A stretch of 23,876 nucleotides of DNA from a virus: positions 1-23,876 of the IMG/VR virus record IMGVR_UViG_3300028800_000310; one strand, written 5' to 3'. This document shows, one piece after another, positions 1-20,078 of the stretch. Each line of letters starts with the position of its first letter. Position 1 is the first letter of the stretch. Position numbers and translations under genes: made by a program. Below the pieces are notes generated by a model. It did not search any database, was not told where the DNA came from, and saw nothing but the letters and a program-made list of their open reading frames with translations.

Positions 1-3000
1 GTTTGCCCAGTTGTAGAAATTATCCAGGCCACGCTCTTTCAGTTTATCCAACTGGAGGAAGCGCTGCATCGTCCAGAGCTCGGCCATGGTGTTCGATACC
101 GGCGTGCCGGTTGCAAACACACCGGAACGCCCCGGCCGATTCTGTTCGAGATATTGCATCTTCAAGAACAGGTCTTCGGCGCGCTGGCTGTCACCCTGCG
201 CCAAACCCTTCACGCGCTGTTTCCGTGTGATGAAGCTGAGGTTCTTGAACTTGTGCGCCTCGTCGACAAACAGATGGTCGATGCCGGTTTCCTCGAAGTT
301 GAGACCGACGTCCTTCCGTTCCTCGTTCATCAGCTTCGCAAGCTTTTCCTCAAGCCGCTTCTTTGCCTTTTCGAGCGCCTTAACGGTCGGGTCTTTCTTG
401 TCACCACCGGACTCCTTAATTTCGGCCTTCATAACGCGCTCGAGTTCATCAATCTGGTCGTTGATGAATTTCTCGCGGAAGTCCCGGTTCATATTGATGC
501 GGCCGAAGGCGTCATGCGTGATGATGACGCCATCCCAATCGTTCGCCGCCGCCTTGGCGATAAACGCCTTGCGGTGCTCCGGTGTCATTTCCTCCTTCTT
601 TGCCACCAGGACTTTTGCGTTGGGATAGGCTTGGATGAACTCACGGCTGAATTGCTCCAGCATGTGGTTCGGCACCACATAGGCCGGCTTGTTGATGAGG
701 CCGAGACGCTTCTGCTCCATACCGGCCGCGATCATGGTGACCGTCTTGCCGGAGCCAACGACGTGCGCGAGTAGCGTGTTGCCGTTCTGGATAATGCGCC
801 AGACTGCATCCAGGCGATGCTGCCGATCCGAAAACATCGGATTAAGGCCCGGCAGCGTGAGGTGCGAGCCGTCAAACTTGCGGTTCGCTAGATTGTTGTA
901 AGTGCGGTTATAGATCGCGGCCAGGCGTTCTGCGCGCTCGGGATCCTGCCAGACCCAGCCGTCAATGCCGTGGTCGGGGTCGCCGGTAAACGCCTCTTTG
1001 AGAGCGAGAACCTTGTTGCGCGCCTCTTCCGTCGCCTTCTGATTAACGCTCTGCTTACCTTCGTCGCCCTTATCGTAGACGGTGATCTGACGATCGTTCA
1101 GCGCGGCATCGAGTATCTTGCCGGGATCGGTGCGCGGCGTGCCGTACTTCGCATAGGCATCGCGGCCAAATCCTGAAACGCGCGCCTTCCACTCGTTGGT
1201 GACCGGCACCATTTTGATGGTGACCCCAGAAGCGCCCATCACCTCCTTGAGGAAGTTGGCGTAGGCATCGGCCGGCACCCACGGAGCACCGAACTGGGCC
1301 GTGATGTCGGTTGGCGCGATCGGAGTCGGCTGCACTTTTTCCAGCGCCGCCACGTTCCGCAAATAGGTCGGATCGGACTTCGCAATCTCACGCGCCTCTT
1401 CCAGCTTCTTGACGACGTTGCCGCTGAGGTATTCGTCCGCCGTCCTCCACTGGCGCCCATCGGGATCGTGATAGATCAGGTCGCCTAGCGCGCCGGCAGC
1501 CTCATCAACCGTTTCAACCCCGAGAGTATTGGCGACGCGGTCGAGGTCGACACGGCCGGTGTCATTGAGCACCGCCGCCAAGGCATCGCCGGGCCCATGG
1601 ATTTCCGCCTCGCGCGGAGCCGCGATGACATCCTTGTTCTGAATATCGGCGCGCTTCGCCTTCCCGGTTTCAGGGTCGTAGTTCTCGATCGACGAAACCT
1701 TGTAGGCATCGGGATCATCGGCGAACGCATCAAAGTTCGGGCGGCGGATGATGACGACTGGCTCGCCGGCCTTGTTAAGCCGCGAGGTGACGGTGCGCTC
1801 TTCCTTGTTGATCGGACCATATTTGTTGACAAAGGCATCGTATTGGTCGCGCAATTCCTCCCGCAGCTTTTCGGCCTTGGCGCCTTCACCATCAAGCTGT
1901 GCCCGGACTAGGTCGTTATAGATGCCGCGCATGCCGATGAAGCGGGCGACACGATCATGCTGCGCATCTGATAGCCGGCGCTCCTGCCCGACACCGGCTT
2001 CGCGCTGGTAAAGCTTGCCACCCTTGATGAAGTAGTTGCCGTCCTTGGTGCCGTGCTCGATGTCGGCGGAATCAATCGTTTCCGGCTTCGGTGTCGCCCG
2101 CGGCGTCATCGCGCCGGGCTGCATGTTTGCCGCGGCCTTCGCGATCTGGCCTTGCAGGTCTTCGGAGTTGCCGATCAATACCGGTTCGTCGGCCCGGTAC
2201 ATCGAGCGCTGCTTCCGCATTTCACCGAGCATCATGTCCGGATGATCGGCGAAGTATCGATTGATCTGGACCGGGCCCTCCGGCGTCTGGACTTCTTTCA
2301 GCCCTTCCCAGTCGGCGCCGGGGAACGGAGCCTCGCCGGGGATTTTCTTGCGGAGGAAGAGAACGTCGGTGGTGACCTGCGTACCGGCGTTGCCAGCAAA
2401 AGCACCCCTGTCTCCCCCAGGCAGTCGGATGGCACCGACCAAATCGGCAGACTTTGAAAGTAGCCGTCTGGTTCCCGCGTCTTGACGGTCCATGGTGAAG
2501 CGGGAGGTGATAAAAGCGACGACGCCTCCCGGTCGCACCTTGTCGAGAGATTTGACGAAGAAGAAATCGTGGATCGGGAAACTGCCATAGGGTTTTTCCG
2601 AAATGTGGTAGTCGCCGAACGGCACGTTCGAGATTGCCAAGTCGTAGTAGTTCGATGGCCGTTTCAGTTCCTCGAAGCCGTGCTGGTTAACATCGGTGCC
2701 GCCGTATAGCGCCTTGGTGATGCGGGCGCTTAGCGGATCGAGTTCGACGGCGGTCCAAGCCGTCCGAGGTGCAACCTTATCCGGGATGAGGCCGATAAAG
2801 TGACCGACACCCACGGCTGGTTCGAGTGCCGTGCCACCCTCGTAGCCCAAATGGGAAAGTGCATCCCACATGCCGCGGATAACATCCGGCGAAGTGAAAT
2901 GCGCGTTAAGCGTTGATGCTCTCGCCGCATCAAACTCTTCGTCCGTGACAAGTGCTCGGAAGGCATCGCGCTCGTTCTCCCAGCCAGTACGTTTGCCGGC

Positions 3001-6000
3001 AGCAAACATATCCTGCGCGTAGGCACCCCAGCCGACGTATTTGACGAGAACGGCTTTCTCGCCCGGTGTCGCCTCGCGGCCTTCATCCTCGATCGCCTTA
3101 AGCGTGCGGATGGCATCGATGTTCTGGCGAACCTTTTGCTTCGGTCCGCCGACACCGACCAAATCTTCCGGAGTGATGCGATAATTCGAGCGTGACCGCT
3201 CCGCGATTTTCTGCTCGGCCTCTCTTATTCCGGCCGTGGCTGGTGGAGCAGTTCGTCCCGAATCGTCTCTTCGATTTCGTGGTGGCGGCTTTGTAACGCT
3301 CGGACCTGCTGGAGGTGCGGTAACTTCTGCACCTCCGGGCTGTGCTGGTACTGGCTCATTAGGAACCGCAGCCGGTCGGCCGCTTGGCTCCCCACCGAAG
3401 AGAGATAACTGGTCGGGTCGCTTTGCCCGGACAGGACGGTTGGGTTGTTGTCCTCCAGGAAGTCCTTGTGCTCCTTGGCGTACCGATCCGCGAGCGGGTC
3501 TGGCTGGTCCTGGTCCATTGGGCTCTTCCCCAAATAAGTCTGTGGCATTATTTGGCACCGTTTCCGGTGGTGTCAATCCCTCTGCTGGCGCGCGAGCTTC
3601 ATCTGCTTGCGGACGCGGGCGCCCCTCCGGCTGCCCGCCATCGCTCTCGCTAAGCGCTCGTCGCGCGTCAATTTGCTCTGCCGCTTCTTTTTCATTGCGT
3701 GGTTTCCGTGAAACAATGTCTAAAAGGTTCGATTGTCCAAGTAGATCGCCGAACAACCCGCCAGGTATCTCCTGCGGAACGCTTCCCCGCATCGGCTCGG
3801 CGGCGCGGCGCCGCAGCAGTTCCGCGGCGGTGATCTTCTCCGCTCCGGGGATGACATACTGCTCGCCCTTCTTGCCACCGGCAAGCGGCACCTTTTCGAC
3901 CGCTATCCCTCTTTCACGGAGTTGGTCGAGCGTTGGCTGCTGAGCAGCGGCATCCTCTTCGCTAAAGAGGCGTTCGCCGCGTGGCCCAACGATTTTGCGG
4001 CCCTCGCCAAGCCAAGGTCCCCGTGCTTCACCGCTACCCGCTTCGCCGCCCGCGCCATCACCAGCGCCGCCGCGGTCGGGAACTTCTGGTCCGACATCTT
4101 CCCACTCCCTGTCTATGGCAAGCCGCTGGATATCCCGCGGTTCCACTGGGGTAAGTTCCAGGTCTAACCCCTTTTCGGCGTTAACCTTTTCGGCCTCATC
4201 GGCATAGAAGCGGATGGCGTCACTGATACGTTGACTGCTGGCCGCGCGCCGCCCCTTGGGGTCGTAGAAAATCCGCATGAAGCCTTCGGTCAGGTCCGGA
4301 AGGCGATCAAAGGCATCCCGTTGGGCGAGGTACTCGTCCAGCTTGTCGCCGCGGCCGCGGATGTCGGCGGTCCGGTTGACCGCATCGAGCAGTTCCGGGG
4401 TCGCGTCCATATCCGGCCGCACCCGGCCGGCCTCGACTTCGGCCCGGAACCGCGCCCACTGGGGCGCCGCAGCGGTCAAAGCGTTGGAAATCGACTTCAC
4501 TTCGTCATTGGTCGATTCCGCAATGCGGGAGAGTATGCCGGCATCGCCGTAAGCCTTGGCCAGGACGGCGTTCCGGACCCTTGCCAAACCTTCGGCGGAC
4601 AGCGCGCCGCGCGCATCGGCCATAAGCCCCTGTTCGGACTGCGGTAAAGCGGCGACAAAAGCCCGGAAGAACGGCCTATTGGCAGGGGCGCCAAGGTCGG
4701 CAGGGTCGTGGATGAGGCCCAACATGCCGGGATTGATATGCCCGGCATCGGACATTGCCCGTTCCGGGGCCGACATGGCCAGAGTTGCCGCCTGATTGGC
4801 CGCTACCGTGAAGGCCCGGCGCTGTTCCGGCGTCATTGGCGACTGCCGCTGGCGCACGATCACCGGATGCCGGTAGGCGCTGACGTCAACCCCTTGGCGG
4901 GTCAGCCAGTCCCGATAGGCTTCCGCGGCCGGCCCACCCTGTTCGTAGACCCTACGGAGGGCCAGGATGCGCCCGTTCCCGCTCTCGACCATCCCGTCAG
5001 GTCCGACGATTGGCGCACCACGGTCCGCCTCTGCCGAATAGCCGAGCCTTTCAGGGTCGAGATTGCCGGCAATGTCGCGGACCTGCGCCTGGCTCGCGGC
5101 GCGTTCGCGCTGCCGGGGCTGTAGCGTCGGGTCGTAGCCTGGATCTTGGGAGGTGCGGAGTTTGTCCGCCTCGACGACGATCGGCGTCGTGCTGACGGCG
5201 GTGCCGTCAGCAGCCGTTACCCGGTGGGGAGCGATCCCGGAGGCGGGCTGCCCGATGAGGGGCTCGTTGCCTGTCTCTTTTCGAGCAGTTCCTGCATCGC
5301 CGCCAGTTGATCCCGGTCGACCATAGCGGCCTGCTCTGAGGGTGTCGGCGAGCGCACCGGCGCCTTCGATGACTTCATATTTTCCTGTTTGGGATGTGTC
5401 GGCATCAGCGAAATCGTTTGCCTCACCCCTCAGCATATAGGCCGTCTTTTTTGGCTTGTCACCCACTTCCTTGAGATAATCCGGATCGACCAGGCGTCCC
5501 GTACGCAGGAAGCGCTGGATGTTGCGACGGCCGGAAATCTCTGGGGTTGCGGCGACGTGCGCGAGGTCGACGGTGTAGCCCAAAGCCTTAAGCGTCTCGA
5601 TTTGCTTGCGGATACTCTCGGGGTTGTCGCCAACCTTCGGCAGGATGATGTTGGCGCCGCGCTCCATGAGGCCGTACAGGACATCCTTCGAAAGCTTCGA
5701 ACTCTCTTCGTGAGTGGCGCCAGTGCCCAATCCGCCGCGATATTCTGGGAATATTTTCTTGGCGTCGTCGGCATCGACGATCGCCGCGCGATAGGTGCGC
5801 GCCAGCGGCTCGGAAATGGCCGATTTACCGGAGGCCGGTGGGCCAAGCACAAAGATGGCACGGCGCTCGTTCTGCACCGGCCCAAATGGTGAATAGCCTT
5901 CGGCGTGCTTGGTTAGAGCGTTGACCGCATTATCCCAGCCTTGGACCTCGTCGCCATCGATGTTGTAAACGCGCGCCGCGCGCCACTCCGGGTTGGCGAA

Positions 6001-7239
6001 ATCTTCCGGAGTGCCGGTCGGCACCGCGGCCCGGTTCTGCTTGAGTGCGGCCTGAACGAGGGGATGCGCGGCGAGCTCATCGACCGGAGCGTTCCGGCTG
6101 AGCATGTCCTGCAAGCTTTCCCGCTCGCCGGCCTGCCGCGGGCCGCCAAGGATCGAGACATCTTCAGGGGTCGGACCACCGCCAGGCGGAGGCGGTGGCT
6201 GCTCGGGCCCGAGGATATCCGCCAGCGCGTCAGTGTGCGCCTTTCCTTCCGTCGTCCCGGCAGCAGGCTGACCAGCGCGCGCCGAAGTATCCCCATGGTA
6301 TGGCGTAGGAGTCAGTGCGCTCAGGAAGCTCCCACCGAGCAAGTTGCCGAGTACACGCCGGACATCGAAGGAATATCCGGCGTTCGGATCGTAAAAGTTC
6401 TGCGCTATCTGTTGTCCCAGCCACTCCTGCGCCTCCCCGATTGTCGCGAACACGGCGCCCCCCTGGAGGGCGTGTGTCAGCCTCGCCTTTGCCCAATCGA
6501 CTATGCCCGGCGCCGAACGCTCGATCGGCTTCAAAACGGTATGGATTGGTAACAGCGCCCCACCAACACCCAGCGCAAAACCGGCCCGCGCCGCTTGGGC
6601 CGCTTCTTCTTGTGTCGCCCCCTTTGCGCGAGCGGCTTCGGCTTCTTCGTGAGCGCTGGAAAGACCGAACTGTCCGGCACCAATAGCAAGGCCGGCTTCC
6701 GGGCCCAGTGCCATGCCGGCAACCATGGCCGGGGCCATGCTGCCGACGCCCATGGCCGCGCGTCCGGTAATGCTTTCCTTTTCCGTTGGCGACATCGGCG
6801 CAATGCGCTCGCCGAACTTAGAGACGGCTTCGCCGGCCTTGTAGACAGGGGTTTCCTGCGGCTTGTAGGCGCCTGCGGCGCGCTCGACATCGGCCCGGAC
6901 GCTCTTGCGCGTCTCCGGGTCCATGTCCTGGTAGCCGATCGGATCCTCGGATGCGGGGACCTTTTCGCCCCGGTCCACGCGATCGAGTGTCGCCAGCGTG
7001 CGCCGGTTATAGTCCGCGGGGAGCTCGGCCGTTCCGGAAATCGCGGAGCCGATGGCCCCTACGGCGCCTTGAGTGACACCGGAGACGGCAACAGGCGCGT
7101 AGCCGCGCCACTGCGGCACATCCTCCCAGTCGTCAGCTTGGGCAGTCTGTTGTTGTGGTTGCTGTTGTGGAGGTGCAGCAGCGCTCGGTTTCGGAGCCGA
7201 CGCTGGGACATCCTCCCAGTCGTCAGCAAATGCCGTCAC
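1..7239 (-). CDS. Giant phage polyvalent protein (zeta-like, ParB, N6-methylase, SNF2 helicase), C-terminus outside window
   Basis: One minus-strand frame stays open for 2413 codons and leaves the window at base 1. The start chosen is GTG at 7239-7237, overlapping the upstream stop as GTGA. Domains in order: two ADDWEDV tags (residues 5-11 and 35-41); Gly/Ala-rich hydrophobic segments (about 160-235); a zeta-toxin-like P-loop kinase with GPPASGKS at 466-473 followed by VDADD; a DdrB-type ParB domain with VESGNGR ending near 757; a low-complexity linker (about 1080-1340) containing QLSLF at 1277-1281; the ITPEDLVGVGGPK segment near 1355 that usually precedes these methylases; methylase motif I LEPAVGVGHF (about 1472) and motif IV SNVPFGDY (about 1537); then an SNF2-type helicase with GSGKT (2162-2166), DEAH (2326-2329) and ATGTP (2376-2380). 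Such fusions are known as polyvalent proteins of phages and conjugative elements, often delivered with the DNA. Protection or reprogramming of incoming DNA is inferred from the domains. The second helicase lobe is not in the window. Confidence 0.93.
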   Translation of the reverse strand, partial: MTAFADDWEDVPASAPKPSAAAPPQQQPQQQTAQADDWEDVPQWRGYAPVAVSGVTQGAVGAIGSAISGTAELPADYNRRTLATLDRVDRGEKVPASEDPIGYQDMDPETRKSVRADVERAAGAYKPQETPVYKAGEAVSKFGERIAPMSPTEKESITGRAAMGVGSMAPAMVAGMALGPEAGLAIGAGQFGLSSAHEEAEAARAKGATQEEAAQAARAGFALGVGGALLPIHTVLKPIERSAPGIVDWAKARLTHALQGGAVFATIGEAQEWLGQQIAQNFYDPNAGYSFDVRRVLGNLLGGSFLSALTPTPYHGDTSARAGQPAAGTTEGKAHTDALADILGPEQPPPPPGGGPTPEDVSILGGPRQAGERESLQDMLSRNAPVDELAAHPLVQAALKQNRAAVPTGTPEDFANPEWRAARVYNIDGDEVQGWDNAVNALTKHAEGYSPFGPVQNERRAIFVLGPPASGKSAISEPLARTYRAAIVDADDAKKIFPEYRGGLGTGATHEESSKLSKDVLYGLMERGANIILPKVGDNPESIRKQIETLKALGYTVDLAHVAATPEISGRRNIQRFLRTGRLVDPDYLKEVGDKPKKTAYMLRGEANDFADADTSQTGKYEVIEGAGALADTLRAGRYGRPGSTGGDAGTARKETGNEPLIGQPASGIAPHRVTAADGTAVSTTPIVVEADKLRTSQDPGYDPTLQPRQRERAASQAQVRDIAGNLDPERLGYSAEADRGAPIVGPDGMVESGNGRILALRRVYEQGGPAAEAYRDWLTRQGVDVSAYRHPVIVRQRQSPMTPEQRRAFTVAANQAATLAMSAPERAMSDAGHINPGMLGLIHDPADLGAPANRPFFRAFVAALPQSEQGLMADARGALSAEGLARVRNAVLAKAYGDAGILSRIAESTNDEVKSISNALTAAAPQWARFRAEVEAGRVRPDMDATPELLDAVNRTADIRGRGDKLDEYLAQRDAFDRLPDLTEGFMRIFYDPKGRRAASSQRISDAIRFYADEAEKVNAEKGLDLELTPVEPRDIQRLAIDREWEDVGPEVPDRGGAGDGAGGEAGSGEARGPWLGEGRKIVGPRGERLFSEEDAAAQQPTLDQLRERGIAVEKVPLAGGKKGEQYVIPGAEKITAAELLRRRAAEPMRGSVPQEIPGGLFGDLLGQSNLLDIVSRKPRNEKEAAEQIDARRALSESDGGQPEGRPRPQADEARAPAEGLTPPETVPNNATDLFGEEPNGPGPARPARGSVRQGAQGLPGGQQPNRPVRAKRPDQLSLFGGEPSGRPAAVPNEPVPAQPGGAEVTAPPAGPSVTKPPPRNRRDDSGRTAPPATAGIREAEQKIAERSRSNYRITPEDLVGVGGPKQKVRQNIDAIRTLKAIEDEGREATPGEKAVLVKYVGWGAYAQDMFAAGKRTGWENERDAFRALVTDEEFDAARASTLNAHFTSPDVIRGMWDALSHLGYEGGTALEPAVGVGHFIGLIPDKVAPRTAWTAVELDPLSARITKALYGGTDVNQHGFEELKRPSNYYDLAISNVPFGDYHISEKPYGSFPIHDFFFVKSLDKVRPGGVVAFITSRFTMDRQDAGTRRLLSKSADLVGAIRLPGGDRGAFAGNAGTQVTTDVLFLRKKIPGEAPFPGADWEGLKEVQTPEGPVQINRYFADHPDMMLGEMRKQRSMYRADEPVLIGNSEDLQGQIAKAAANMQPGAMTPRATPKPETIDSADIEHGTKDGNYFIKGGKLYQREAGVGQERRLSDAQHDRVARFIGMRGIYNDLVRAQLDGEGAKAEKLREELRDQYDAFVNKYGPINKEERTVTSRLNKAGEPVVIIRRPNFDAFADDPDAYKVSSIENYDPETGKAKRADIQNKDVIAAPREAEIHGPGDALAAVLNDTGRVDLDRVANTLGVETVDEAAGALGDLIYHDPDGRQWRTADEYLSGNVVKKLEEAREIAKSDPTYLRNVAALEKVQPTPIAPTDITAQFGAPWVPADAYANFLKEVMGASGVTIKMVPVTNEWKARVSGFGRDAYAKYGTPRTDPGKILDAALNDRQITVYDKGDEGKQSVNQKATEEARNKVLALKEAFTGDPDHGIDGWVWQDPERAERLAAIYNRTYNNLANRKFDGSHLTLPGLNPMFSDRQHRLDAVWRIIQNGNTLLAHVVGSGKTVTMIAAGMEQKRLGLINKPAYVVPNHMLEQFSREFIQAYPNAKVLVAKKEEMTPEHRKAFIAKAAANDWDGVIITHDAFGRINMNRDFREKFINDQIDELERVMKAEIKESGGDKKDPTVKALEKAKKRLEEKLAKLMNEERKDVGLNFEETGIDHLFVDEAHKFKNLSFITRKQRVKGLAQGDSQRAEDLFLKMQYLEQNRPGRSGVFATGTPVSNTMAELWTMQRFLQLDKLKERGLDNFYNWAN
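3225..3518 (-). CDS. Nested +1-frame gene inside the polyvalent gene, TnpV-like protein (97 aa)
   Basis: This frame lies wholly within the giant gene, shifted by one base. ATG at 3518-3516 is preceded by GGGGAAGAG with a spacer of about eight bases from GGGGA; an ATG at 3548 is also in frame but has a poorer leader. It ends in TAA at 3227-3225. By hand count 78 of 97 codons end in G or C, while the giant frame over the same bases has about a third and is Pro/Gly/Arg-rich linker. The protein is mixed and helical, with YAKEHKDFLED near the start, YLSSVGSQAADRLRFLM in the middle and EIEETIRDELL near the end. That order and spacing resembles TnpV-family proteins (transposon-encoded protein TnpV), which occur in mobile elements that also carry SNF2-methylase proteins. 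The family match is from memory and moderate; translation of this frame is better supported than its function. Confidence 0.62.
   Translation of the reverse strand: MDQDQPDPLADRYAKEHKDFLEDNNPTVLSGQSDPTSYLSSVGSQAADRLRFLMSQYQHSPEVQKLPHLQQVRALQSRHHEIEETIRDELLHQPRPE
3397..3411 (-). other. QLSLF motif, candidate sliding-clamp-binding peptide in the polyvalent protein
   Basis: In the giant frame, residues 1277-1281 read QLSLF and are followed by GGEP. Bacterial beta-clamp-binding peptides follow the consensus QL(S/D)LF. The motif sits in a disordered-looking linker just before the methylase-helicase part, a usual position for such peptides. The same bases encode part of the nested TnpV-like protein in the other frame, so a chance match remains possible. 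Confidence 0.45.
3523..3531 (-). promoter_or_regulatory. Shine-Dalgarno for the nested TnpV-like gene
   Basis: The minus strand reads GGGGAAGAG, then CCCA, then ATG at 3518. From the GGGGA core the spacing to the start is eight bases. It lies inside the coding sequence of the giant gene, where no ribosome binding site is otherwise expected. Confidence 0.5.
3903..4097 (-). CDS. Possible nested +1-frame gene, basic Ala-rich 64-aa protein
   Basis: This is a second open frame within the giant gene, in the same +1 relation, in the linker after the ParB region. ATG at 4097-4095 follows AGGGAG with a seven-base spacer. About 86% of its codons end in G or C by hand count, against roughly half in the giant frame, which reads as a Gly-rich linker here. 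The protein is Ala/Lys/Arg-rich, with HGDLGLARAAKSLGHAANAS suggesting amphipathic helix; no family was recognised. Other +1-frame shadows in this gene are Ser/Arg/Pro-rich, and this one is not. High G/C at third positions can arise passively in GC-rich DNA, so this remains a candidate. Confidence 0.33.
   Translation of the reverse strand: MSDQKFPTAAALVMARAAKRVAVKHGDLGLARAAKSLGHAANASLAKRMPLLSSQRSTNSVKEG
5217..5378 (-). CDS. Possible nested +1-frame gene, 53-aa hydrophilic protein
   Basis: This is a third +1-frame candidate in the linker between the zeta-like and ParB domains of the giant protein. ATG at 5378-5376 follows ACAGGAAAAT, an AGGA core with four-base spacing. The product has a short predicted helix (AAMVDRDQLAAMQELLEKR) and a Pro/Ser-rich tail. 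About three quarters of the codons end in G or C, while the giant frame over the central part uses many A/T-ending codons. No family was recognised. An in-frame ATG at 5426 would add 16 residues but lacks a good leader. Coding is uncertain. Confidence 0.28.
   Translation of the reverse strand: MKSSKAPVRSPTPSEQAAMVDRDQLAAMQELLEKRQATSPSSGSPPPGSLPTG
7118..7227 (-). repeat. 20-bp direct repeat encoding tandem ADDWEDV tags
   Basis: The plus-strand string acatcctcccagtcgtcagc occurs exactly at 7118-7137 and 7208-7227, 90 bases apart. Both copies are read in the giant frame as ADDWEDV, at residues 5-11 and 35-41, separated by a Gln/Pro/Ala-rich spacer. Similar short Asp-Trp-Asp/Glu-Val peptides recur at the N-termini of large phage internal proteins (family knowledge from memory). 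A virion-packaging or ejection tag is inference. Confidence 0.85.
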
Positions 7240-10200
7240 TGCTTCGTACCGTCCGCAGCGTAGATGGTTCCATCAGGCGCCACCCAGCGATAAGCCCCAG
7301 TTGCCTTGCTACGCTGTAGCTTAGCGTCGGGCGGAACGCTAGGTGGTCGTGGTGGCTCGGGCGGTTTTGCTGCCGGAGTTGCAGCCGGCGCGGCGGTTGT
7401 TGCGGGCGCGGCCGGTGCCGTTGCAGCCGGCGCGGCTCCTGGGGTAGCTGGTGTCGGCGATACACCGTAACGCTTTTCCCAATAATCCAAGGTCGATTCG
7501 GGTGCGTTCTTCTTGCCCATGTTGGCGGGCTCGGCGCTCCACGCCTTCCACCCACCTTGCGCCAAGGTAAGGCGCCGGATCGTTTCCTGATCCGCGTTCG
7601 GGGCTTTATGCGCCAGGACGAGAGCCTCCTGGAACGTCATTTCAGGAAGAGCCGGGTTGTCGCGGCGCTGCTTCTGATTCTCATCGAGCAGACGATTGGC
7701 GATGCCCTCGACCGCGCCCGCGGCGTGCTGCGCCGGTCGCGTCTTCACATCGGCCGGTACTGGCATGCCGGTCACGCCGTCAAACGCGCTCCCCGGTCTG
7801 GTGGAATCGAAAAGGATAGGATGACCCTCTTCCGTCTCTATCCCGGCCGGCTTCAAATTCATCTTCGACGGTCGGGTCTCGACCCCGGAATCGATCGGGC
7901 CACCGGTGACACCATCCACGGTCCGGCCGCTGTATTTGTCTATCATAATCGGATGGCCGTCCGCCGTCTCACGACCGGTCGGCGTGAGGTTCAAGCGCTG
8001 CCGGAACTGCGCCTGCGATTCCTCCGATTTCTGGTGGGTGTTCGCTTCCTGCGTCAAAACGTCGAGGTGGCGACGGTGATAGGTGAGGTCGTCGTCGAGC
8101 TTCTTGGCCTCGAGGTTGATCTTGTCCTGACTGAGTTTGGCGGCCTGTTCTTGCTGTTTCTCCTGCGCATAGGTCTGAGCGCCGGAGACTATCCCCTCGC
8201 CCACCGCAACCCCGGCGAAGGGCGAGTGCGACGCCATCATGCTGCCGCCCGCCATGATGAGCGCCGGCCACAGCTTGGACTTTGACGACCAGTCGATATC
8301 GGGGGATGGCGCGACCCCGCTGGACGCGGACGCGCTTGGCGATGGCGCCGCCGCACCGCTGGTTCTTGGCTCTCCGGCCCCACGATTGAGGACGTCACTC
8401 ACATAGGACGAGGTCGATTTGCCATTACCGTCGCTGGCATCCTTGATCCATGGCGTCGGGCTACCTGGAGGTGCAACATTGCCTGGTCCGGAAAAATAGG
8501 CCACGGCGGCACGAGCCGGGTCGCCACCATAGCGATGCCAATAATCATCGAGGATGCGCTTGCTGACGGCACGGTTATCGTCTGGATCATCAATCCGCTC
8601 ACCGGGCTTCGCGTATTGCGTAAACGTCTGAGGCAAAATTTGACCTGGGCCCCGAGCGTTATCGGTACTAACTCCGACATTGTTACGATTGCCACTCTCT
8701 TGGTTCAGGATGGCATTGGTCAGGGATGGCGGGGCGCCCCCGCTCGTGCCCTTGGTCACTTCGGGCGGTAAAACACCATCATTGGAAGCCAGTCGAACCG
8801 GTGGCCCGGCGCCATAACCCGGTGGGACAACGATGCTGTCCGGCGTCTGAGCCGGAACGACGCCATTGGCCGAAACATCAACGTCGGGATCGCTGTCCCC
8901 GCCGCCATCGGCGTATCCCGGCGCCAACGACGGCAGCCGACCACTCTCCATGGCCGTCTCGCTGAAGAAGTCCGGCGCCGCCGCGACGAGATCGGGATTG
9001 ATGCCGTTCGCCGTCATCGAGTCGCTACCGCCATTGCCGCCATTGCCGCCGCCGTCGGCGTAATGGTGAACTACACCGCCCCGGCGATACACCGCTCCGG
9101 CGCTACTATCGCCACCGGATGGCGAGCCGATCATCGGGGACGCATTGAGGGGGAGGCCGGCGTAGGCACCTCCACCGCCACCACTTGGAACCACCCCGCT
9201 CGCCGGTGTCGGCGGTAGGATGTTAGTCGGCGGAGCCGGCGTGTTCATGCCGTTGCGGATGGCATTGGCGAGTTGGCCAACCGAATTGGCCTGGTTCGTC
9301 AGTGACGGCTGCTGCTGTTGCTGCGTTTGCTGCTGTTGCTGCGTTTGCGGCGGAGGCGGAGCGCCTGGGCCCCTGGTGATGGACGCCTGCGGCACCCAAA
9401 TCTTGGCCGAGCCGTACGGCGAGCCGACCGCCCCATAGGGCGCGGCTGCGACACCGGTAGCGGCGCCACCGTCGTCAAAGCCGGGCACCATACCGCCAGA
9501 GGCACGATGATGGTGCACGCGGCTGAGCACGGTAAATCTTGGATCCTCGAAGTGCAGTTGATGGCCGGGCGACATGGTCCGCGCCATGTGAGCGGCCTGG
9601 TGGGGAGCGGTGACGTGCGTACCCGCCGCGGCGCGCGCTTCCGTACCGTCTGGATGGCGCTCGACCACCGCCACCGGTATCTCGCCGCCGTGCATCCGCG
9701 CCATGATCTCGTGCTTGGAGAACGGGCCAAGGTCGAGCAAGTGATGCTCGTCGCCATGTTCGACGGTCCGCCGCACCTCGGCACCGCTGATAAGCTTCGG
9801 GTTGAAGTGGAAAACCTCGCCGTGCACGGAAACGCGCGACATGCCGTGAGGCAGCGACAATTCTCTGCTCCCATGGGGGAACATCTGCACGCGGCGGTGC
9901 CCGGCGATAAGCTGCCGCTGCTGCAAGCGCAATGTCTGTGGCGACTCCGGTACCGTTGGCGTCCGATTGGCAACACCGTCGGCAGGGACACCACCGCCGC
10001 GCGCCAAGGCGGCAATCGCGGGCGCAAGCCACCCGGCAGAACCGCCAGCGCCGGCAAAAGCACCAGTGCCGCCTAAGATGCCGGCGCCGGATGTCAGGAG
10101 GCCGCCAAGCTGGCTGAACAAGTTCGGGTTTGGATTCACCGTCTGTGACGTGCCGCCCATCTGCGAGCCGACACCGGTATCGATGCCGGACTGCCATTGC

Positions 10201-10901
10201 GTCGTCTGGAACGGGTAGGCCAACTGATTGAGGAATTGCTGGTAGTTCCACAGGTCAGTCTGCTGCTGGGTCTGCTGCTCGAGCGTGCCGGCGCCGATCT
10301 GAGCGTTCGCCCCGGTAAGTGCGGCGTTCTCGCCGGCCACACCAAGAGCCCCGATATTTTGCGCCCCGGATTCCTGGGCCTGCTGTTCGGATAGTGCGGT
10401 ATTGACGCCCTGAGTGTAGCCCGAACTCTCCAAGCCAGCGATGATCGGCGCCTCGGCGGTTTGCTGCTGATTCGCAAGGATGCCCTGTGCGACCGCCTCA
10501 CGGTTGCCGCCAAAGGCGCCAGAGGAAATGGCATTGCCCTCGACCTGCTGTTGCTGCTGCGCGTTCGTGTTGGCGAATTGCTGCTCGGTCGCATTGACGA
10601 CGTTCGACGTCCAGGGATTGACGTACTGCTGGATATCGCCGGACGTGATCGGCGTCGCCGCACCAGCGGCTAGACCTTCCGATTCCCCGATGTATGGCAG
10701 CGCGGAATAAGCGTTCTCATTGATGCCGTGGATGCCGGCGTATTGCTGCGGATCGACAGGCGCGACGCCCTCACCGCCGTACGGCGTGTACGGCGTGGAC
10801 GCGACACTCGCCGCTTGGGGCAATAGTCCCTGGTACGCCGCCAATGCTGTAGAGTTTGGCGTCGAGGTAGTGGTAGTGGTGTTCTTATTGCCCCCGCACA
10901 T
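7236..10901 (-). CDS. Virion/ejection protein with internal lytic transglycosylase domain (1221 aa)
   Basis: This long protein has several low-complexity segments. Residues 1-280 are Gln/Ala/Asn-rich and start MCGGNK, with the NPW and GAFGGNRE signatures of podovirus internal or tail-tip proteins. Residues about 315-480 form an unrecognised His-rich segment, followed by Gln and Gly repeats. A lytic transglycosylase (SLT-type) domain spans about 725-840: ILNQESGN with Glu735 as the likely catalytic acid, then ARGPGQI and AVAYFSGPGN. A Gly/Ala hydrophobic stretch and a Lys/Gln-rich coiled coil (about 895-985) follow, with an Ala/Pro-rich tail. Such proteins locally open peptidoglycan during DNA entry. 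ATG at 10901 overlaps the GNAT stop by one base (TGATG), and its own stop overlaps the GTG of the giant gene. Confidence 0.9.
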   Translation of the reverse strand: MCGGNKNTTTTTSTPNSTALAAYQGLLPQAASVASTPYTPYGGEGVAPVDPQQYAGIHGINENAYSALPYIGESEGLAAGAATPITSGDIQQYVNPWTSNVVNATEQQFANTNAQQQQQVEGNAISSGAFGGNREAVAQGILANQQQTAEAPIIAGLESSGYTQGVNTALSEQQAQESGAQNIGALGVAGENAALTGANAQIGAGTLEQQTQQQTDLWNYQQFLNQLAYPFQTTQWQSGIDTGVGSQMGGTSQTVNPNPNLFSQLGGLLTSGAGILGGTGAFAGAGGSAGWLAPAIAALARGGGVPADGVANRTPTVPESPQTLRLQQRQLIAGHRRVQMFPHGSRELSLPHGMSRVSVHGEVFHFNPKLISGAEVRRTVEHGDEHHLLDLGPFSKHEIMARMHGGEIPVAVVERHPDGTEARAAAGTHVTAPHQAAHMARTMSPGHQLHFEDPRFTVLSRVHHHRASGGMVPGFDDGGAATGVAAAPYGAVGSPYGSAKIWVPQASITRGPGAPPPPQTQQQQQTQQQQQPSLTNQANSVGQLANAIRNGMNTPAPPTNILPPTPASGVVPSGGGGGAYAGLPLNASPMIGSPSGGDSSAGAVYRRGGVVHHYADGGGNGGNGGSDSMTANGINPDLVAAAPDFFSETAMESGRLPSLAPGYADGGGDSDPDVDVSANGVVPAQTPDSIVVPPGYGAGPPVRLASNDGVLPPEVTKGTSGGAPPSLTNAILNQESGNRNNVGVSTDNARGPGQILPQTFTQYAKPGERIDDPDDNRAVSKRILDDYWHRYGGDPARAAVAYFSGPGNVAPPGSPTPWIKDASDGNGKSTSSYVSDVLNRGAGEPRTSGAAAPSPSASASSGVAPSPDIDWSSKSKLWPALIMAGGSMMASHSPFAGVAVGEGIVSGAQTYAQEKQQEQAAKLSQDKINLEAKKLDDDLTYHRRHLDVLTQEANTHQKSEESQAQFRQRLNLTPTGRETADGHPIMIDKYSGRTVDGVTGGPIDSGVETRPSKMNLKPAGIETEEGHPILFDSTRPGSAFDGVTGMPVPADVKTRPAQHAAGAVEGIANRLLDENQKQRRDNPALPEMTFQEALVLAHKAPNADQETIRRLTLAQGGWKAWSAEPANMGKKNAPESTLDYWEKRYGVSPTPATPGAAPAATAPAAPATTAAPAATPAAKPPEPPRPPSVPPDAKLQRSKATGAYRWVAPDGTIYAADGTKQ
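9310..9345 (-). repeat. Tandem 18-bp repeat coding for TQQQQQ units
   Basis: The plus-strand unit tgctgctgttgctgcgtt occurs twice back to back (9310-9327 and 9328-9345). Within the ejection protein it encodes Gln-rich TQQQQQ-type units in a Pro/Gln linker. It is probably a replication-slippage repeat in a flexible region. Confidence 0.85.
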
Positions 10902-11590
10902 CAGGAAGCCGCAGCCTGCGCCGCCCCCTTATTGGCCGGTCGTGTCGGCCCCCAAATCTTGTCCTCGGAACTGACGGCTTCGGCCGCCTCGCGCAATAGC
11001 GGCCCGATTTTTCGCTGTGCCACCTCGAACGTCACCTTGCGGTCGTTGCAAAGCTTGGCCGCCTCGCGGAGCTTGACCGCCAACGCGCCGTGGTCCTCCA
11101 TCGGCTCGTGGTCCCATTTCGCGTTGTAAATGAAGAACGCACCCGCGGCGTGACCGAGCAGTCGGTGATATAGCCGCACTTTCCCAGCCGTTCGATTGTC
11201 GGTGATGATGCCGGTCAGGAACGGGCATTGAGCGCCAAGGTTCTGCGACATCTTCTGCGCGCACTCCATCCCGAATCGAATCAAGGCTTCCGCAGCTTTG
11301 GACTTGCGGTACTCCTTATCGACAAAATTCCAAAGTTCGGCGAGGTGGGTATCGTCGCTGTAGTAGTAGTCTGACAGCATGATGCAGGTCGAAGCTTCTG
11401 GCTTGCCGACAGGACCTATCACCCCGAGGATGACGCCATCCCGCTGGTAATATCTCTGAAGCAGCGCGGCAACCTTGGCCTCGTTCAACGTGAACAAGCC
11501 GTTCTCGGCATGCAAGCGCCGGCACATCTCCATGATGGCCGGCTCATCCTCCGGAGCAGCAAGACGAACTTTTGGCAATTCCTGCTGCAT
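10901..11590 (-). CDS. GNAT-family N-acetyltransferase, phage type (229 aa)
   Basis: The N-terminus VRLAAPEDEPAIMEMCRRLH is the usual beta1-alpha1 opening of GNAT acetyltransferases. The region FVDKEYRKSKAAEALIRFG matches acetyl-CoA-binding motif A, with the usual R-x-x-G-x-G/A turn changed to RKSKAA. The later LYHRLLGHAAGAFFIYN matches the C-terminal beta strands. The last 60 residues form a charged helical tail ending in Ala-rich sequence. Phage-encoded GNATs near virion genes are known, but their substrates mostly are not. The start ATG directly abuts the TAA of the upstream gene, and the stop overlaps the next start, so it is translated with the ejection protein. Confidence 0.85.
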   Translation of the reverse strand: MQQELPKVRLAAPEDEPAIMEMCRRLHAENGLFTLNEAKVAALLQRYYQRDGVILGVIGPVGKPEASTCIMLSDYYYSDDTHLAELWNFVDKEYRKSKAAEALIRFGMECAQKMSQNLGAQCPFLTGIITDNRTAGKVRLYHRLLGHAAGAFFIYNAKWDHEPMEDHGALAVKLREAAKLCNDRKVTFEVAQRKIGPLLREAAEAVSSEDKIWGPTRPANKGAAQAAAS

Positions 11591-11893
11591 TTAATTAAGC
11601 GACCTTTCCGCTTCCTCCGGCTTGGCCTCCGCGCCGTCGCCGTTTGCCGCCTTTGCCGTGGCGACGCTCGCATCGTGCGACTGAAGGAGGTTTTGAAGGC
11701 TGGCCATCATCTGACGCGCGCACGGGATATCCATGCGCAGCCGGCCAACAATGACCGGGTCAGGGACTGCCGTTTTGCCGTCCTCTGACGGTGAAAACAG
11801 GAAGGCGCCCAACGTCATATTGACGACGCCATTGTTGATCCCTTGGCCAACAACGAGGTTGGCGAAAATCGGCTTGTCGTCGATCGATCTCAT
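11591..11893 (-). CDS. Small protein resembling DUF3467 (100 aa)
   Basis: The protein starts MRSIDDKPIFANLVVGQGIN, continues with a beta-rich stretch (VVNMTLGAFLFSP), a short loop, VIVGRLRMDIPCARQMMASL and a charged Ala/Glu-rich tail. A strand-rich half followed by an R-x-R-M/I-x-x-x-x-A helix resembles DUF3467 proteins; this match is from memory and tentative. The ATG overlaps the upstream stop as ATGA, and its TAA abuts the GNAT start. Cellular role unknown. Confidence 0.75.
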   Translation of the reverse strand: MRSIDDKPIFANLVVGQGINNGVVNMTLGAFLFSPSEDGKTAVPDPVIVGRLRMDIPCARQMMASLQNLLQSHDASVATAKAANGDGAEAKPEEAERSLN

Positions 11894-12297
11894 GTAATTG
11901 TCTCCATGGGCACGTCATATTCACACGGGATCGCATCAGAAGAACCGTTGAGCAGTTCAGCCATCCTGACAAGCATCGGCCGAAATTTTCCGATGTAACT
12001 GCGGTCCGCGATATCGCTTCGTTCAATGAAGCCCTTAACAACGCGCCGGATGTCGCTTTTCGCGACAATCACAATGAGGCGATCATGCTCAATGTCGACT
12101 ATGATATCGCCATCAACCGGGTACCGGTGATCGAGAAAGACGCCACCTAGCTCCATCCGCAAACCGGGCCACAATAAATCGCGCACTGCACTTAACGCTA
12201 CCGGATAGCGTGGTGCTGCCGCTTCGGCCGATACCGGAACGATGTGGCCAACGAACGGAATAGCGGCGATTGCGGTTAGGACAGAGCGACGGTTCAT
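11890..12297 (-). CDS. Small phage protein with a twin-arginine signal (135 aa)
   Basis: I chose ATG at 12297-12295, which overlaps the upstream stop as ATGA and begins MNRRSVLTAIAAIPFVG. This is a twin-arginine motif followed by a hydrophobic stretch and an Ala-x-Ala-type region (SAEAAAP), i.e. a Tat-like signal peptide. A longer frame reaches 12411, but those 38 residues only overlap the upstream gene. The mature part is strand-rich and acidic (GDIIVDIEHDRLIVIVAKSD) with a helical C-terminus; no domain recognised. An exported or envelope-associated role during assembly or lysis is inferred from the signal only. Confidence 0.78.
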   Translation of the reverse strand: MNRRSVLTAIAAIPFVGHIVPVSAEAAAPRYPVALSAVRDLLWPGLRMELGGVFLDHRYPVDGDIIVDIEHDRLIVIVAKSDIRRVVKGFIERSDIADRSYIGKFRPMLVRMAELLNGSSDAIPCEYDVPMETIT

Positions 12298-13370
12298 GCT
12301 GCCCACCTCAATGCGATTTCCAGCCCAACGCCGCCACCTGTCCAGCGCTTCGCCGGAGGCGGCAGCTTCTTCTGGGTTTCGATTTCCTTCTTGCGGGTGT
12401 CCATCACCCACTTGTCGAGAATCTTGTGCCCGGCTTTCAGGCTACCGAACTTGGCGATGATGACTTGCGGCGGGATGACGTACTCGCCACCGCTGATATC
12501 AACGTCGACCGGCTCGAAGTGATCGGTACCGCGCGCGCCCCCTTCGCTGTAGCCACCGGTCCAGAACTTCGTCATCGGCTTCGGCGGCTTCGGTAGACCA
12601 GCGCCATGCGCAATCTTCGGCGCCCCGGCGCCGTACGGGCCGCTGAACATCTTGCTCGCCAGCGACATACCGGCAAGCGTATTCCCGCTCCCCATCGAAG
12701 CAATGTGCTGCGCCGGCAGGACGTACGAGCCAGCCGGCACCTTCACCTTGTGATTGTCGGTGCGGCCCGGAACGCTCGACAGCACCGGCCCGACGTGAAG
12801 CTGCCGCATCGCATTGCGCTCGTAATACGGCGGCCGGATTTGCGGGCCTTCCGCGATATTGAAGCCGCCGCCACCGGCGCGTTGCGCGACACCGCCCCGG
12901 TTCATCAATTTTTGCTGGATCGGGTTGTTCGGTGCGGGAGGCACGATCCCTGTCGCGGCCGGAACCACAGCGGCATTTGGCGTCGTGGCGGCTGCGGCCG
13001 GAGCTACACCCTGCGCCTGGGCCTGAGTGTTGGCCACCGGAGGCGAGGTCGAGGTGGTCGAGGGAACACTGGAAGGGGCGGACGTATTGGTCGAGCCGGC
13101 AGGGGCGGCAACGCCGGACGTCCCTGCGCCGGCACTCAAAGCGTTTATGACCGCCGTCACCGGATTCGCAGGGGGGGCAGTCCCGCCAGCATCGTAATGC
13201 GGGACAATTCCACCCGCCGCGCGCCCCGCCGCTGCGCGGCGTTGCGTCTCTAAGGCGATCGCGATGGCTTGCTTGCGGCTTTGGACGTGCGGGCTCTTGC
13301 CGATGTCCCCGAACAGCGTGTGCATGTTGCGGTGGAGTGCAGCGGGGGTGGATGAGTGCTCAAGCGGCAT
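12294..13370 (-). CDS. Virion-associated protein with paired Gly-x-Tyr-Val-x-Pro motifs (358 aa)
   Basis: The N-terminus has SPHVQSRKQAIAIAL, an opening common in small phage proteins. Residues about 75-165 are an Ala/Pro/Thr/Ser-rich disordered linker. The C-terminal half carries two related segments: VPAGSYVLPAQHIASMGSGN, and ISGGEYVIPPQVIIAKFG followed by a basic helix. The form GEYVxPxxV...G...LD is widespread in podovirus structural proteins as far as I recall, with unsettled function. Near residue 55, GGIVPHYDAGG matches motifs in the ejection protein. It lies between the tail nozzle module and a Tat-signal gene. The sequence supports a structural or ejection-associated role but no activity. 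Confidence 0.82.
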   Translation of the reverse strand: MPLEHSSTPAALHRNMHTLFGDIGKSPHVQSRKQAIAIALETQRRAAAGRAAGGIVPHYDAGGTAPPANPVTAVINALSAGAGTSGVAAPAGSTNTSAPSSVPSTTSTSPPVANTQAQAQGVAPAAAATTPNAAVVPAATGIVPPAPNNPIQQKLMNRGGVAQRAGGGGFNIAEGPQIRPPYYERNAMRQLHVGPVLSSVPGRTDNHKVKVPAGSYVLPAQHIASMGSGNTLAGMSLASKMFSGPYGAGAPKIAHGAGLPKPPKPMTKFWTGGYSEGGARGTDHFEPVDVDISGGEYVIPPQVIIAKFGSLKAGHKILDKWVMDTRKKEIETQKKLPPPAKRWTGGGVGLEIALRWAA

Positions 13371-13382
13371 CTTTTGTCTCGC

Positions 13383-13709
13383 TCACTTGCCCAGAACTGA
13401 CCATTGCGTGCCGTTCCACCAGACCAGGTAAGTCACGGCCCCCGTACTTGCGGTAGCATTTGCTCCCCACGCGAGCGCAGATGCACCGTTCGTAATGAAG
13501 GCCAACATACCGATAGACGGCGAACTCGGCAACGTAGCGACCGTGTAGCCCTTAACACTTTGAGGAAAATTGACCGCCTGGATAGCAGCAATCAACTCCT
13601 GACCATTTTTGTAGAGGTTCGTGAGTTGGCGGACGACGCCTTGAAGCTGGGTCGCTAGATCGGTCGAACCGGCGCTACCTTGGCCAGGAGCGGTGGGTTG
13701 CTCAGCCAT
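13383..13709 (-). CDS. Small tail-associated phage protein (108 aa)
   Basis: The N-terminal half is helical (LATQLQGVVRQLTNLYKNGQ). The C-terminal half reads YTVATLPSSPSIGMLAFITN and ends TYLVWWNGTQWSVLG. The latter resembles the common phage module in which ATLP...G..A.VTD precedes a small beta structure ending in DGTNW, found in tail fibre-like and head-decoration proteins. The ATG overlaps the nozzle stop by one base (TGATG). It is probably a minor tail or fibre-associated protein; the exact role is unknown. Confidence 0.8.
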   Translation of the reverse strand: MAEQPTAPGQGSAGSTDLATQLQGVVRQLTNLYKNGQELIAAIQAVNFPQSVKGYTVATLPSSPSIGMLAFITNGASALAWGANATASTGAVTYLVWWNGTQWSVLGK

Positions 13710-15985
13710 CAGCGCCTCCCTGCCGGCTCATAGCGGTACTTGATCGAGCCGATTCGCCAGAAGCTTCCGATGTCGCTTGACGTGATGGTGATGCTCAGCA
13801 TGCGCCCCCGGAACCGAACCGATAGAAACTCGGTTGCCTGCGTCACCGTATATGGCCCGTAACTAATCGGCGTGTCGCCGGGGAAGTTGACGACGTTGAA
13901 CGTCATCTGAATCTGCGCCGACGGGCCCCCGGTGAACGTGCTCCATTTGAAATCCGGGATGATCTGGTCGACGAAGGTATAGTCCTCGCTCTCCTGCAAA
14001 TAGAAGAAACCGGTGGTGAAGGAGGCGACCAGCGGCGAGCCGGCAGCGTCAGGGCTGACTTCGTGCTGGTAGATTAGACCGTTCGAAGCCGCGCCGATCG
14101 GCATGCCGAGGACGCTTTCATCGGTCCATGCCGATCTGTTCATCGGGCCAATGTCCCAGGGCGCACCCGGCTCCGTGATGTTCATTTTGACGTAACTGTC
14201 ACACTCGCCGGACGAGCTCGCCGCGCTTGGATAAAGCCAGCCGACTTCGTTGTACGGCGTGTTCGGCATGGCCCGGACGTTTTGCAGGAAGCTGGTGTTG
14301 ATGTTTTGGAACACCGCATCCCACACCGGGCATGGGATCACGTTGGCGCCGTTGCTGGTGTACGAAGCGAAATTGCTCGGCGCCATCCAGAACACCGAAC
14401 CGCGAAGCTGCTGGACGGCATGAGACGACACCGCCCCGAGGCCGGCGCCAATCTTGTTGAAGCCGAAGACGTCAGGCACCCCGATATAGTTCATCGCCCA
14501 TAGGTCGAGGTCGGTCCAAAGCAGGTTTTGATTGGAAACCGCCATGCCGGCCACGAGCCGGCTGCCGGTCGGGATGGGGAAGTTTCCGGCCTGGTCCGCC
14601 GCGTCCGGGTCCCATTGAAAGAAATTGCCGGCGTCTGACCACTGCACGAGAAGCGGCTGCTGCTGGACACCGACACCGCCTGGGTTCTGTTCCGACACCG
14701 ACGAGCCGTAAGCAATAAGGATTTGCTCGGTTGTCGAAATGAAGATGCCCTCATTGAAGGCTGGACCGCTCGCTATAACTTGCGCGTTCTGAAATCCGCT
14801 CTCCGGGTCCCAGTAATAGATGGGGCCGTTCTCCGGGCACGCGATGAGGATTTCGCCCCAATTGTCGGAAGTCCAATCCGTAGCGGTGATGGGAGTGCCG
14901 GTCTGGGAGCCGCTGGTGGTGGTGCCGGTGCCGAAGCCGCCGCTGCCGAAGCCGCCAAGACCGAAGCCGGTTCCCGCAGGGGGTGGCCCCAAGGCGATGT
15001 AATAGACCAGTTCAGCGGCGCCAGCGTTCATGGCGAACGTGCCGGTGCCGGTCGCCAAGGTGGTGGCCGCGATGGCGAAATTATTAACGTCAGTGACCGA
15101 GGACACCTCATAGGCGCCCCCAATGGTGACGCCTTCCCCCGTTGTCGGGATCTGGAAAACGACAGTCGAGCCGATGGAAAGCCCGTGGTTGATGAACGCG
15201 ACCGCGACGGTCTGGCTGCCGTTGGTTGTCGTGAAGACCGGCAGGCTGCAAAAGACGATTTGATCGCCATTGCCGACGCCAGGAGCGGCAGCGTTATTAT
15301 TCATCGTGACGGTCGTGCCCGTAGAGGCAGTAACGACTGTGCTCGGCGGGATAGAGCTCGGGTTGGTGAGATTGGCAATCACCATCCCATCGACGAGCCA
15401 CGACGGAGTTGTGCCGAAATGAAGGGTGTTATTGCCGATGGCCGTCGTTCCGTTCGTCGCCGTCGGGTTGGTTTCGGTCGTCGTCGCGTTTGACGCGGCT
15501 GTAATGTTGTAGGAGTGCGTCCCCGTTATCTGAGTGATCGGGTAAAGGCCGAAAAGTAGGAGACCGCCAATCGATATCGGTACGTTGAAGAACACGGTGT
15601 CATCGACCGTGACGTTGCTGATATTGGGGTCGACTACGTTGACGGTCGGACTTGAAGCCGTGGTCGAGAAGTTCGGTGCAAAGTTCGATATCAACGTCTG
15701 CGGCGTGATGTCCTGGAGGTTGCCGTCGGTGATGACGACAAGCTTAGAACCGGTCCCCGTGGTGCCGATCGCAAGGTGATCGTTTCCATTGAGGTCCTCC
15801 CAGGCATGAAGATCGCGCGGGACACCTGAAATGGCGAACGGGTAAAGCTGGAGCCAGCCGCCGAGCTTCTGGACCAGCGAGTCGCGAAATCGAATTAGGC
15901 TGCTGACAGCAATGCCGGCCCGCAAAAGGGTCGGTGTGCGCTCTACATTTACGCCGGGGACAAGAGTGACGCTGCCAAACGCCAT
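13709..15985 (-). CDS. Podovirus tail nozzle / tubular-B-like protein (758 aa)
   Basis: The protein opens LVPGVNVERTPTLLRAG, then FRDSLVQKLGGW, the usual start of nozzle proteins related to P22 gp10 and T7 gp12. The middle is Thr/Gly/Asn-rich beta structure with a Gly/Phe run (GFGLGGFGSGGFGTG, about 340-355). The C-terminal half has the conserved series: WSDAGNFFQWDP, NLLWTDLDLWAMNYIG, VFGFNKIGAG, SVFWMAPSNF, CPVWDAVFQNIN and NEVGWLYPSA. These blocks match the propeller of podoviral nozzle proteins. It would form the lower tail tube and sits beside adaptor and collar genes as expected. Length is in the range for the family. Confidence 0.88.
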   Translation of the reverse strand: MAFGSVTLVPGVNVERTPTLLRAGIAVSSLIRFRDSLVQKLGGWLQLYPFAISGVPRDLHAWEDLNGNDHLAIGTTGTGSKLVVITDGNLQDITPQTLISNFAPNFSTTASSPTVNVVDPNISNVTVDDTVFFNVPISIGGLLLFGLYPITQITGTHSYNITAASNATTTETNPTATNGTTAIGNNTLHFGTTPSWLVDGMVIANLTNPSSIPPSTVVTASTGTTVTMNNNAAAPGVGNGDQIVFCSLPVFTTTNGSQTVAVAFINHGLSIGSTVVFQIPTTGEGVTIGGAYEVSSVTDVNNFAIAATTLATGTGTFAMNAGAAELVYYIALGPPPAGTGFGLGGFGSGGFGTGTTTSGSQTGTPITATDWTSDNWGEILIACPENGPIYYWDPESGFQNAQVIASGPAFNEGIFISTTEQILIAYGSSVSEQNPGGVGVQQQPLLVQWSDAGNFFQWDPDAADQAGNFPIPTGSRLVAGMAVSNQNLLWTDLDLWAMNYIGVPDVFGFNKIGAGLGAVSSHAVQQLRGSVFWMAPSNFASYTSNGANVIPCPVWDAVFQNINTSFLQNVRAMPNTPYNEVGWLYPSAASSSGECDSYVKMNITEPGAPWDIGPMNRSAWTDESVLGMPIGAASNGLIYQHEVSPDAAGSPLVASFTTGFFYLQESEDYTFVDQIIPDFKWSTFTGGPSAQIQMTFNVVNFPGDTPISYGPYTVTQATEFLSVRFRGRMLSITITSSDIGSFWRIGSIKYRYEPAGRR

Positions 15986-15994
15986 ATCGTCACG

Positions 15995-17008: not shown

Positions 17009-17013
17009 AGCGG

Positions 17014-17021
17014 CCTCCCCC
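17014..17021 (-). promoter_or_regulatory. Strong Shine-Dalgarno pointing to an ATT start
   Basis: The minus strand reads GGGGGAGG, then CCGCT, then ATT at 17008. The core and five-base spacing are close to ideal, and there is no other in-frame start nearby, so this site decides the start of the collar-like protein. Confidence 0.7.
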
Positions 17022-17237
17022 TCAGTTCGCGTTCAAGAATAAGATCGGATGCTCGCTTAGCGGCGCCGTATAGGTCGAGCCATCTGGCCGCTTGCACTCG
17101 TAATAGGGCGTCGTGCGATTGCAGTCCTCAATGACCTGCTGGCAATACTGCTTACCGTTCGCCGGCTCACAGTGCATTTGCGGCGCACACGCCAGCAACG
17201 TCGAGACTATCGGCAGAACGAAAGTGCAAATATCCAT
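17022..17237 (-). CDS. Small Cys-rich putative lipoprotein (71 aa)
   Basis: The N-terminus MDICTFVLPIVSTLLACAPQ is hydrophobic and ends in LLAC, a plausible lipobox, although there is no positively charged n-region. Five cysteines follow or include that site (17, 23, 32, 39, 48) in a polar remainder. It sits between the head-tail adaptor and the collar-like protein, with its stop 13 bases before the ATT start. Options are an exported superinfection-exclusion-type lipoprotein or a spanin-like outer protein, but it lacks the Pro-rich character of Rz1. No family was recognised. Confidence 0.68.
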   Translation of the reverse strand: MDICTFVLPIVSTLLACAPQMHCEPANGKQYCQQVIEDCNRTTPYYECKRPDGSTYTAPLSEHPILFLNAN

Positions 17238-17240
17238 CGA

Positions 17241-17957: not shown

Positions 17958-17988
17958 CGGCCCACCCGATTCCCCCGACGGGTCGGGC

Positions 17989-18615: not shown

Positions 18616-18616
18616 G

Positions 18617-19636: not shown

Positions 19637-19650
19637 TGGCTTTTCCCTTT

Positions 19651-20061: not shown

Positions 20062-20078
20062 TGCTTAAATTTCCCTTG

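Follow-up and report, generated by a model that had tools for sequence, protein, structure and literature searches.

Does the linker of a giant polyvalent phage gene encode a second, separate protein in another frame? The question is raised by the virus record IMGVR_UViG_3300028800_000310, of which a stretch of 23,876 bases (hereafter the window) was analysed. Its minus strand carries a DarB-like polyvalent gene (1..7239), a 2,413-amino-acid (aa) open frame cut by the window end, and this giant encloses a TnpV-like open reading frame (ORF) of 97 codons (3225..3518, minus strand), offset by +1 from the reading frame of the giant (7239..1), with its ATG at 3518 and its stop codon at 3225-3227, as the original prediction had placed it. 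The comparative evidence for dual coding is strong, and we conclude that both frames very probably encode protein; the nested protein is presumably translated.

The nested ATG is preceded, at a distance of 4 nt, by a weak Shine-Dalgarno (SD)-like sequence (GGGGAAGAG, 3523..3531, minus strand); the leader that had been predicted is present, although relatives have better ones at the same place (GGAGG in the nearest related phage, L002, and GGAGAGG in L102). An in-frame upstream extension (3519..3548, minus strand) offers an alternative ATG at 3548, which would give 107 aa but is probably not the start, since the alignment of the relatives begins at the 3518 ATG. The giant frame is stop-free across the whole nested ORF, in agreement with the prediction. 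Codons ending in G or C account for 80.4% of the nested frame and 34.7% of the giant frame over the same bases, close to the 80 and 35% first estimated; the latter value is the lowest along the giant, only 4 of its 2,315 sliding windows being that low. The methylase core, for which about 78% had been given, stands at 69.4%, as does the giant as a whole. Such figures might be by-products of a linker rich in Gly, Pro, Arg and Ala, the +1 frame being no gene at all: the linker composition favours G/C at giant positions 1 and 2, and when the giant codons of the window are shuffled the nested frame stays open 30% of the time, openness of either frame being not improbable in the window alone (0.23-0.30). 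The window by itself is thus insufficient, and proof rests on the relatives.

L002, whose methylase is 78% identical and whose giant frame comprises 5,046 aa, keeps the nested ORF with 54% aa identity (E 8e-28) and its SD sequence a few bases ahead of the ATG. Between the window and L002, the substitution frequencies at giant codon positions 1/2/3 are.351/.316/.277 in the overlap versus.148/.096/.514 downstream of it, and upstream of the ORF the giant third position is again highly variable (0.47). Inside the ORF, variability is highest at the giant first position, the wobble position of the nested frame, and lowest at the third (Fisher p 9e-6). The codon phase that tolerates substitutions thus switches within the ORF, which bears out the earlier claim that third-position selection has moved to the nested frame. 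The same switch was found in the Lasta/Pavtok/Itty group of Klebsiella, Erwinia and Pseudomonas phages (.305/.182/.160 in the overlap versus.121/.090/.360 downstream), in Firmicutes elements (.298/.159/.127 versus.160/.116/.389), in an Agrobacterium pair and in an uncultured clade. Among single pairs, eight gave Fisher p values between 7e-5 and 2e-8 and a ninth gave 2e-3. In the Firmicutes set, the nested protein is more conserved at every divergence than the giant residues over the same bases, which form a low-complexity, weakly conserved linker. The initiation signal is conserved as well, although weak in the window itself: SD and ATG occur in nearly all Firmicutes copies, with an SD that is usually strong and of the GAAAGGAG type, and 70 of the 74 unique copies of the phage set have an SD-like match of at least 4 nt. 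Related phages therefore keep both frames, the start codon and the SD. The original prediction thus withstands the refutation test that it had set itself, namely homologous phages with the giant frame kept but the nested frame broken or its start and SD lost. The suggestion that the +1 frame is no gene is hardly credible in view of this conserved SD and ATG, the higher conservation of nested residues, the closed +2 frame at the same place and the TnpV homology described below; the codon-phase switch in several separate clades refutes it in effect.

The window ORF matches the Pfam family TnpV (PF14198) with E 1.7e-4 and 21.9 bits, so that the predicted TnpV likeness stands, with a score below the curated cut-off of that family (27 bits). 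Scores are much higher among nested relatives (best E 2.5e-44), and 32 of 50 nested viral proteins match PF14198 individually with E below 0.01, while none of the other families matches more than one of the 50. A profile built only from Firmicutes proteins finds the nested ORF of L002 (1.6e-8) and that of the window (0.003), with no other match in either locus, and hhalign of A2 against A3 gave E 3e-6 with a probability of 88. Through such intermediates, sequence comparison identifies the window ORF as a TnpV homolog. The AlphaFold model of the nested protein is confidently predicted (mean predicted local distance difference test score 92.8), with helices at residues 8-24, 26-31, 35-58, 61-64 and 68-91; structure comparison returned generic helical matches and no informative fold match, and a sequence search of the PDB returned weak helical matches only. 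Fourteen nested proteins also match PHROG 938, annotated as 'endolysin'; a lysis role was not inferred, because the matches covered only the last approximately 100 positions (2084-2185) in the four that were inspected. These positions resemble the C-terminus of orf33 of Sinorhizobium phage PBC5 (L007), in which an upstream ORF (3-6452) extends into the TnpV frame; the methylase ORF (5876-15076) of this phage lies in another frame. This PBC5 arrangement may reflect a frame change or a sequencing error, and may have seeded the 'endolysin' family PHROG 938, the C-terminus of which resembles TnpV.

Searched against viral contigs as a single query, the nested protein gave no match, and homologous loci were therefore fetched through the methylase, alignment of whose core yielded 80 viral loci. 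A profile seeded only with the nested proteins of the window and L002 was then applied to 12,790 ORFs and picked out, with few exceptions, a single ORF at each locus. These ORFs are on the sense strand and +1 of the giant, are fully enclosed by it, and in general precede the methylase by no more than several hundred bases. Altogether, 77 of 79 DarB-like viral loci carry the +1 nested ORF, among them those of Itty13, SopranoGao, LASTA, SJM3, Pavtok, PEp14, Stean, VvAW1, Mwe-JY07, Atu_ph08, POI1126 and JC1. In the inspected records of these named phages, no separate gene is annotated in the same strand and frame; they show the giant only or, in Itty13, an opposite-strand call. In the latter (L005, 2516-13774), GenBank has three large coding sequences on the strand opposite the DarB-like giant frame. 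One viral contig (L139) contains two TnpV-like ORFs, at 4678-5226 and 11953-12330, of which one is nested in the giant and the other lies unenclosed at its 3' end.

The arrangement extends to Firmicutes: of 90 TnpV genes collected there, 85 are entirely contained in a giant ORF, in its +1 frame. Nested copies had served as seeds for this set, and some of its members are near-identical. When PF14198 was surveyed without bias in 299 Bacillota genomes, 30 loci were assessable (2 of the 31 loci examined came from seed genomes), of which 16 were nested without a giant-frame stop and 14 were standalone. None of the 85 nested loci has a stop in the giant frame, while the third frame has 13.7 on average; all 14 standalone copies of the Bacillota sample have stops (1-9) in the frame that matches the giant's, which argues that selection keeps the giant frame open. 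Both frames are thus under selection, the nested one by the codon-phase switch and the giant by its freedom from stops. As a separate observation, an unverified contig of Firmicutes type (MT837606, L003) has a single giant-frame stop within the TnpV overlap, at 3752-3754. From these comparisons, the position and frame of the nested gene are shown to be conserved across phyla, from mobile elements of Firmicutes to phages of proteobacteria and cyanobacteria, and the arrangement is ancient and widespread, not peculiar to the phage of the window, a point that the original prediction had missed.

The same stop counts bear on the idea that the giant frame is untranslated through the overlap, so that an N-terminal protein, TnpV and a methylase-helicase would be three genes whose frames are stop-free by chance. 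In its favour, the helicase is annotated from after the small gene in some plasmids (L009, L221, L223), the N-terminal ORF of PBC5 continues into the TnpV frame, and conservation of the giant residues in the overlap is weak. This is nevertheless very improbable given the complete absence of giant-frame stops in nested loci as opposed to their presence in standalone copies. One continuous giant is annotated in most inspected phage records, and some giant-frame residues of the overlap are conserved in the clade of the window (QLSLF, VTKPP). JC1 virions, moreover, contained 51 unique peptides of the 4,515-aa DarB-like protein (PMC9144972; a count only, without positions relative to the overlap), which indicates that a giant of this type is made.

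The giant of a Streptococcus suis plasmid also holds an unannotated nested TnpV (L010, 5826-6278). Cargo elements of S. suis whose insertion site is within snf2 of integrative and conjugative elements (ICEs) carry their own TnpV gene (PMC9815147), and a link between that TnpV and the nested one is possible. In proteobacterial plasmids, namely L009 (6500-12670), L221 (698-5303), L223 and L224, a 101-aa gene occupies the same place upstream of the helicase in the +1 frame, and the giant frame runs open through it, which is not the case in L222. Annotations of the plasmid helicase-methylase disagree, starting either before or after the 101-aa gene. A gene order seen in plasmids is zeta-toxin gene, 101-aa small gene and helicase gene, the small gene being +1 of the open helicase frame. 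This order possibly shows how the nesting originated; it is a lead from gene order, the homology of the small protein to TnpV being weak (hhalign probability 25%).

Under dual coding, the mRNA of the giant would be read in two ways. Ribosomes coming from the giant start codon would read through in frame 0 and make a low-complexity linker from the overlap bases, and those starting internally at the nested SD and ATG would make a separate helical protein of about 11 kDa. Within the overlap, the nested protein would be the more constrained product, with the giant frame staying open and supplying the linker. The arrangement is old, and may stem from an upstream module that became joined to a methylase-helicase gene by read-through of an intervening small gene.

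The N-terminal modules vary, and the nested gene keeps its place ahead of the methylase-helicase core, which suggests a role as partner or regulator, or as packaging or export helper. We tentatively propose, with somewhat less than even confidence, that the nested protein acts as a partner of the methylase-helicase antirestriction protein or regulates it. It might instead bind the giant as a chaperone or a packaging or export factor for entry into the virion or the conjugation channel. In JC1 and P1, DarB-like proteins are part of the virion (PMC9144972, PMC5512222), and P1 DarB, which is without the N-terminal extension, is also without the nested gene; P1, however, packages DarB without it, and such a function seems rather unlikely. 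A third possibility is an excisionase-like factor. For the TnpV of Tn4451, a part in excision was postulated from its similarity to lambda Xis, and TnpV genes occur in several integrative elements (PMC3158075). In phages, however, nested copies track the methylase-helicase gene, and the modelled structure, a plain bundle of helices, resembles no informative fold, which makes an excisionase improbable. A wider version of the proposed antirestriction role, also held at rather less than even confidence, is that the nested gene is a near-universal second product of N-terminally extended methylase-helicase polyvalent genes in Firmicutes elements, proteobacterial and cyanobacterial phages and perhaps plasmids, where it would be a small anti-defence subunit, the giants having grown by read-through and not by displacement.

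Several observations weigh against dual coding or against its generality. The nested ORF is absent from one of the 79 viral loci (L179), and another (L163) retains only a short form. The DarB of P1, which has no N-terminal extension, has none, so the core activity does not need the nested gene. Around standalone TnpVs no methylase was found in the examined DNA, so that the idea of a partnership is not general. The SD of the window ORF is weak and its PF14198 score does not reach the curated cut-off. Some pairs gave no significant codon-phase difference (L102-L103, p 0.12; L084-L091, p 0.21), and some had no usable alignment for that test. Finally, the nested-ORF profile was iterated on its own hits, with Pfam serving as the outside check.

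The nested proteins share sequence family and size with TnpV of integrative elements of the Tn4451/Tn6104 type (PF14198). Known TnpVs, however, are described as ordinary genes of their own elements, whereas the nested copies lie wholly inside another gene, in phages and ICE-like elements. The enclosing gene is a member of the DarB-like or DNA methylase-helicase polyvalent proteins (PMC5512222; PHROG 10089), with methylase and SNF2 helicase, Zeta-kinase and ddrB-ParB modules, and the nested gene would be an unreported second product of this class. The main text of the 2017 survey of polyvalent proteins (PMC5512222) mentions neither TnpV nor overlapping genes. No report of a nested TnpV was found in the open-access literature. 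Nested phage and bacterial genes are known, such as Rz1 in Rz, E in D of phiX174 and comS in srfA. Like the window, these have a small same-strand gene in another frame with its own start; they differ in that here the host gene is a polyvalent one of 2,400-5,600 aa, the small gene belongs to a family that has free-standing members too, and the same layout is found in Firmicutes elements and in phages of several phyla. Nested genes as a kind and TnpV as a family are thus known; the open-access papers searched do not describe the two combined, as a hidden gene conserved in polyvalent giants. Giant polyvalent genes are central to the survival of phages and conjugative elements on cell entry, and catalogues of what they encode have considered only one reading frame at a time. 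Any mutant, clone or expression construct of a giant may accordingly have included or disrupted a second protein without this being noticed. The nested gene would be a concrete candidate for a missing factor in antirestriction, and the loci provide a large natural data set on dual-coding evolution, with the standalone copies as built-in controls.

The remaining features of the giant, all on the minus strand, agree with its assignment. It matches PHROG 10089 (DarB-like antirestriction) with 1216 bits and combines the methylase and SNF2-type helicase that characterise DarB-like antirestriction polyvalent proteins. From its N-terminal side, it comprises a Zeta-toxin-like kinase domain (5458..5871; PF06414, E 2.2e-19), a ddrB-like ParB domain (4846..5208; PF18763, E 5.6e-33), the low-complexity, presumably disordered linker in which the nested ORF sits, the methylase core (2110..3159; PHROG and DarB-like matches), which begins about 65 nt past the nested stop codon, and an SNF2/SF2 helicase domain (238..789; PF00176, 2.1e-8, and PF04851). 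The giant lies beside virion structural genes and a gene that has matches of the DNA-ejection and lytic-tail kind. By analogy with its JC1 and P1 relatives, for which presence in the virion is reported, the giant might be carried in the virion and protect DNA against type I restriction. In L002, the giant frame (5270-20410) contains an intein splicing domain (PF14890) within the helicase region. The QLSLF motif of the giant frame lies inside the overlap (3397..3411); it is found in L002 and L102, appears as QVSLF in L103 and is absent from L101 and L124. We take this motif to resemble a sliding-clamp-binding motif, and in the part of the clade of the window that has it, it overlaps a conserved YLSS motif of the nested protein.
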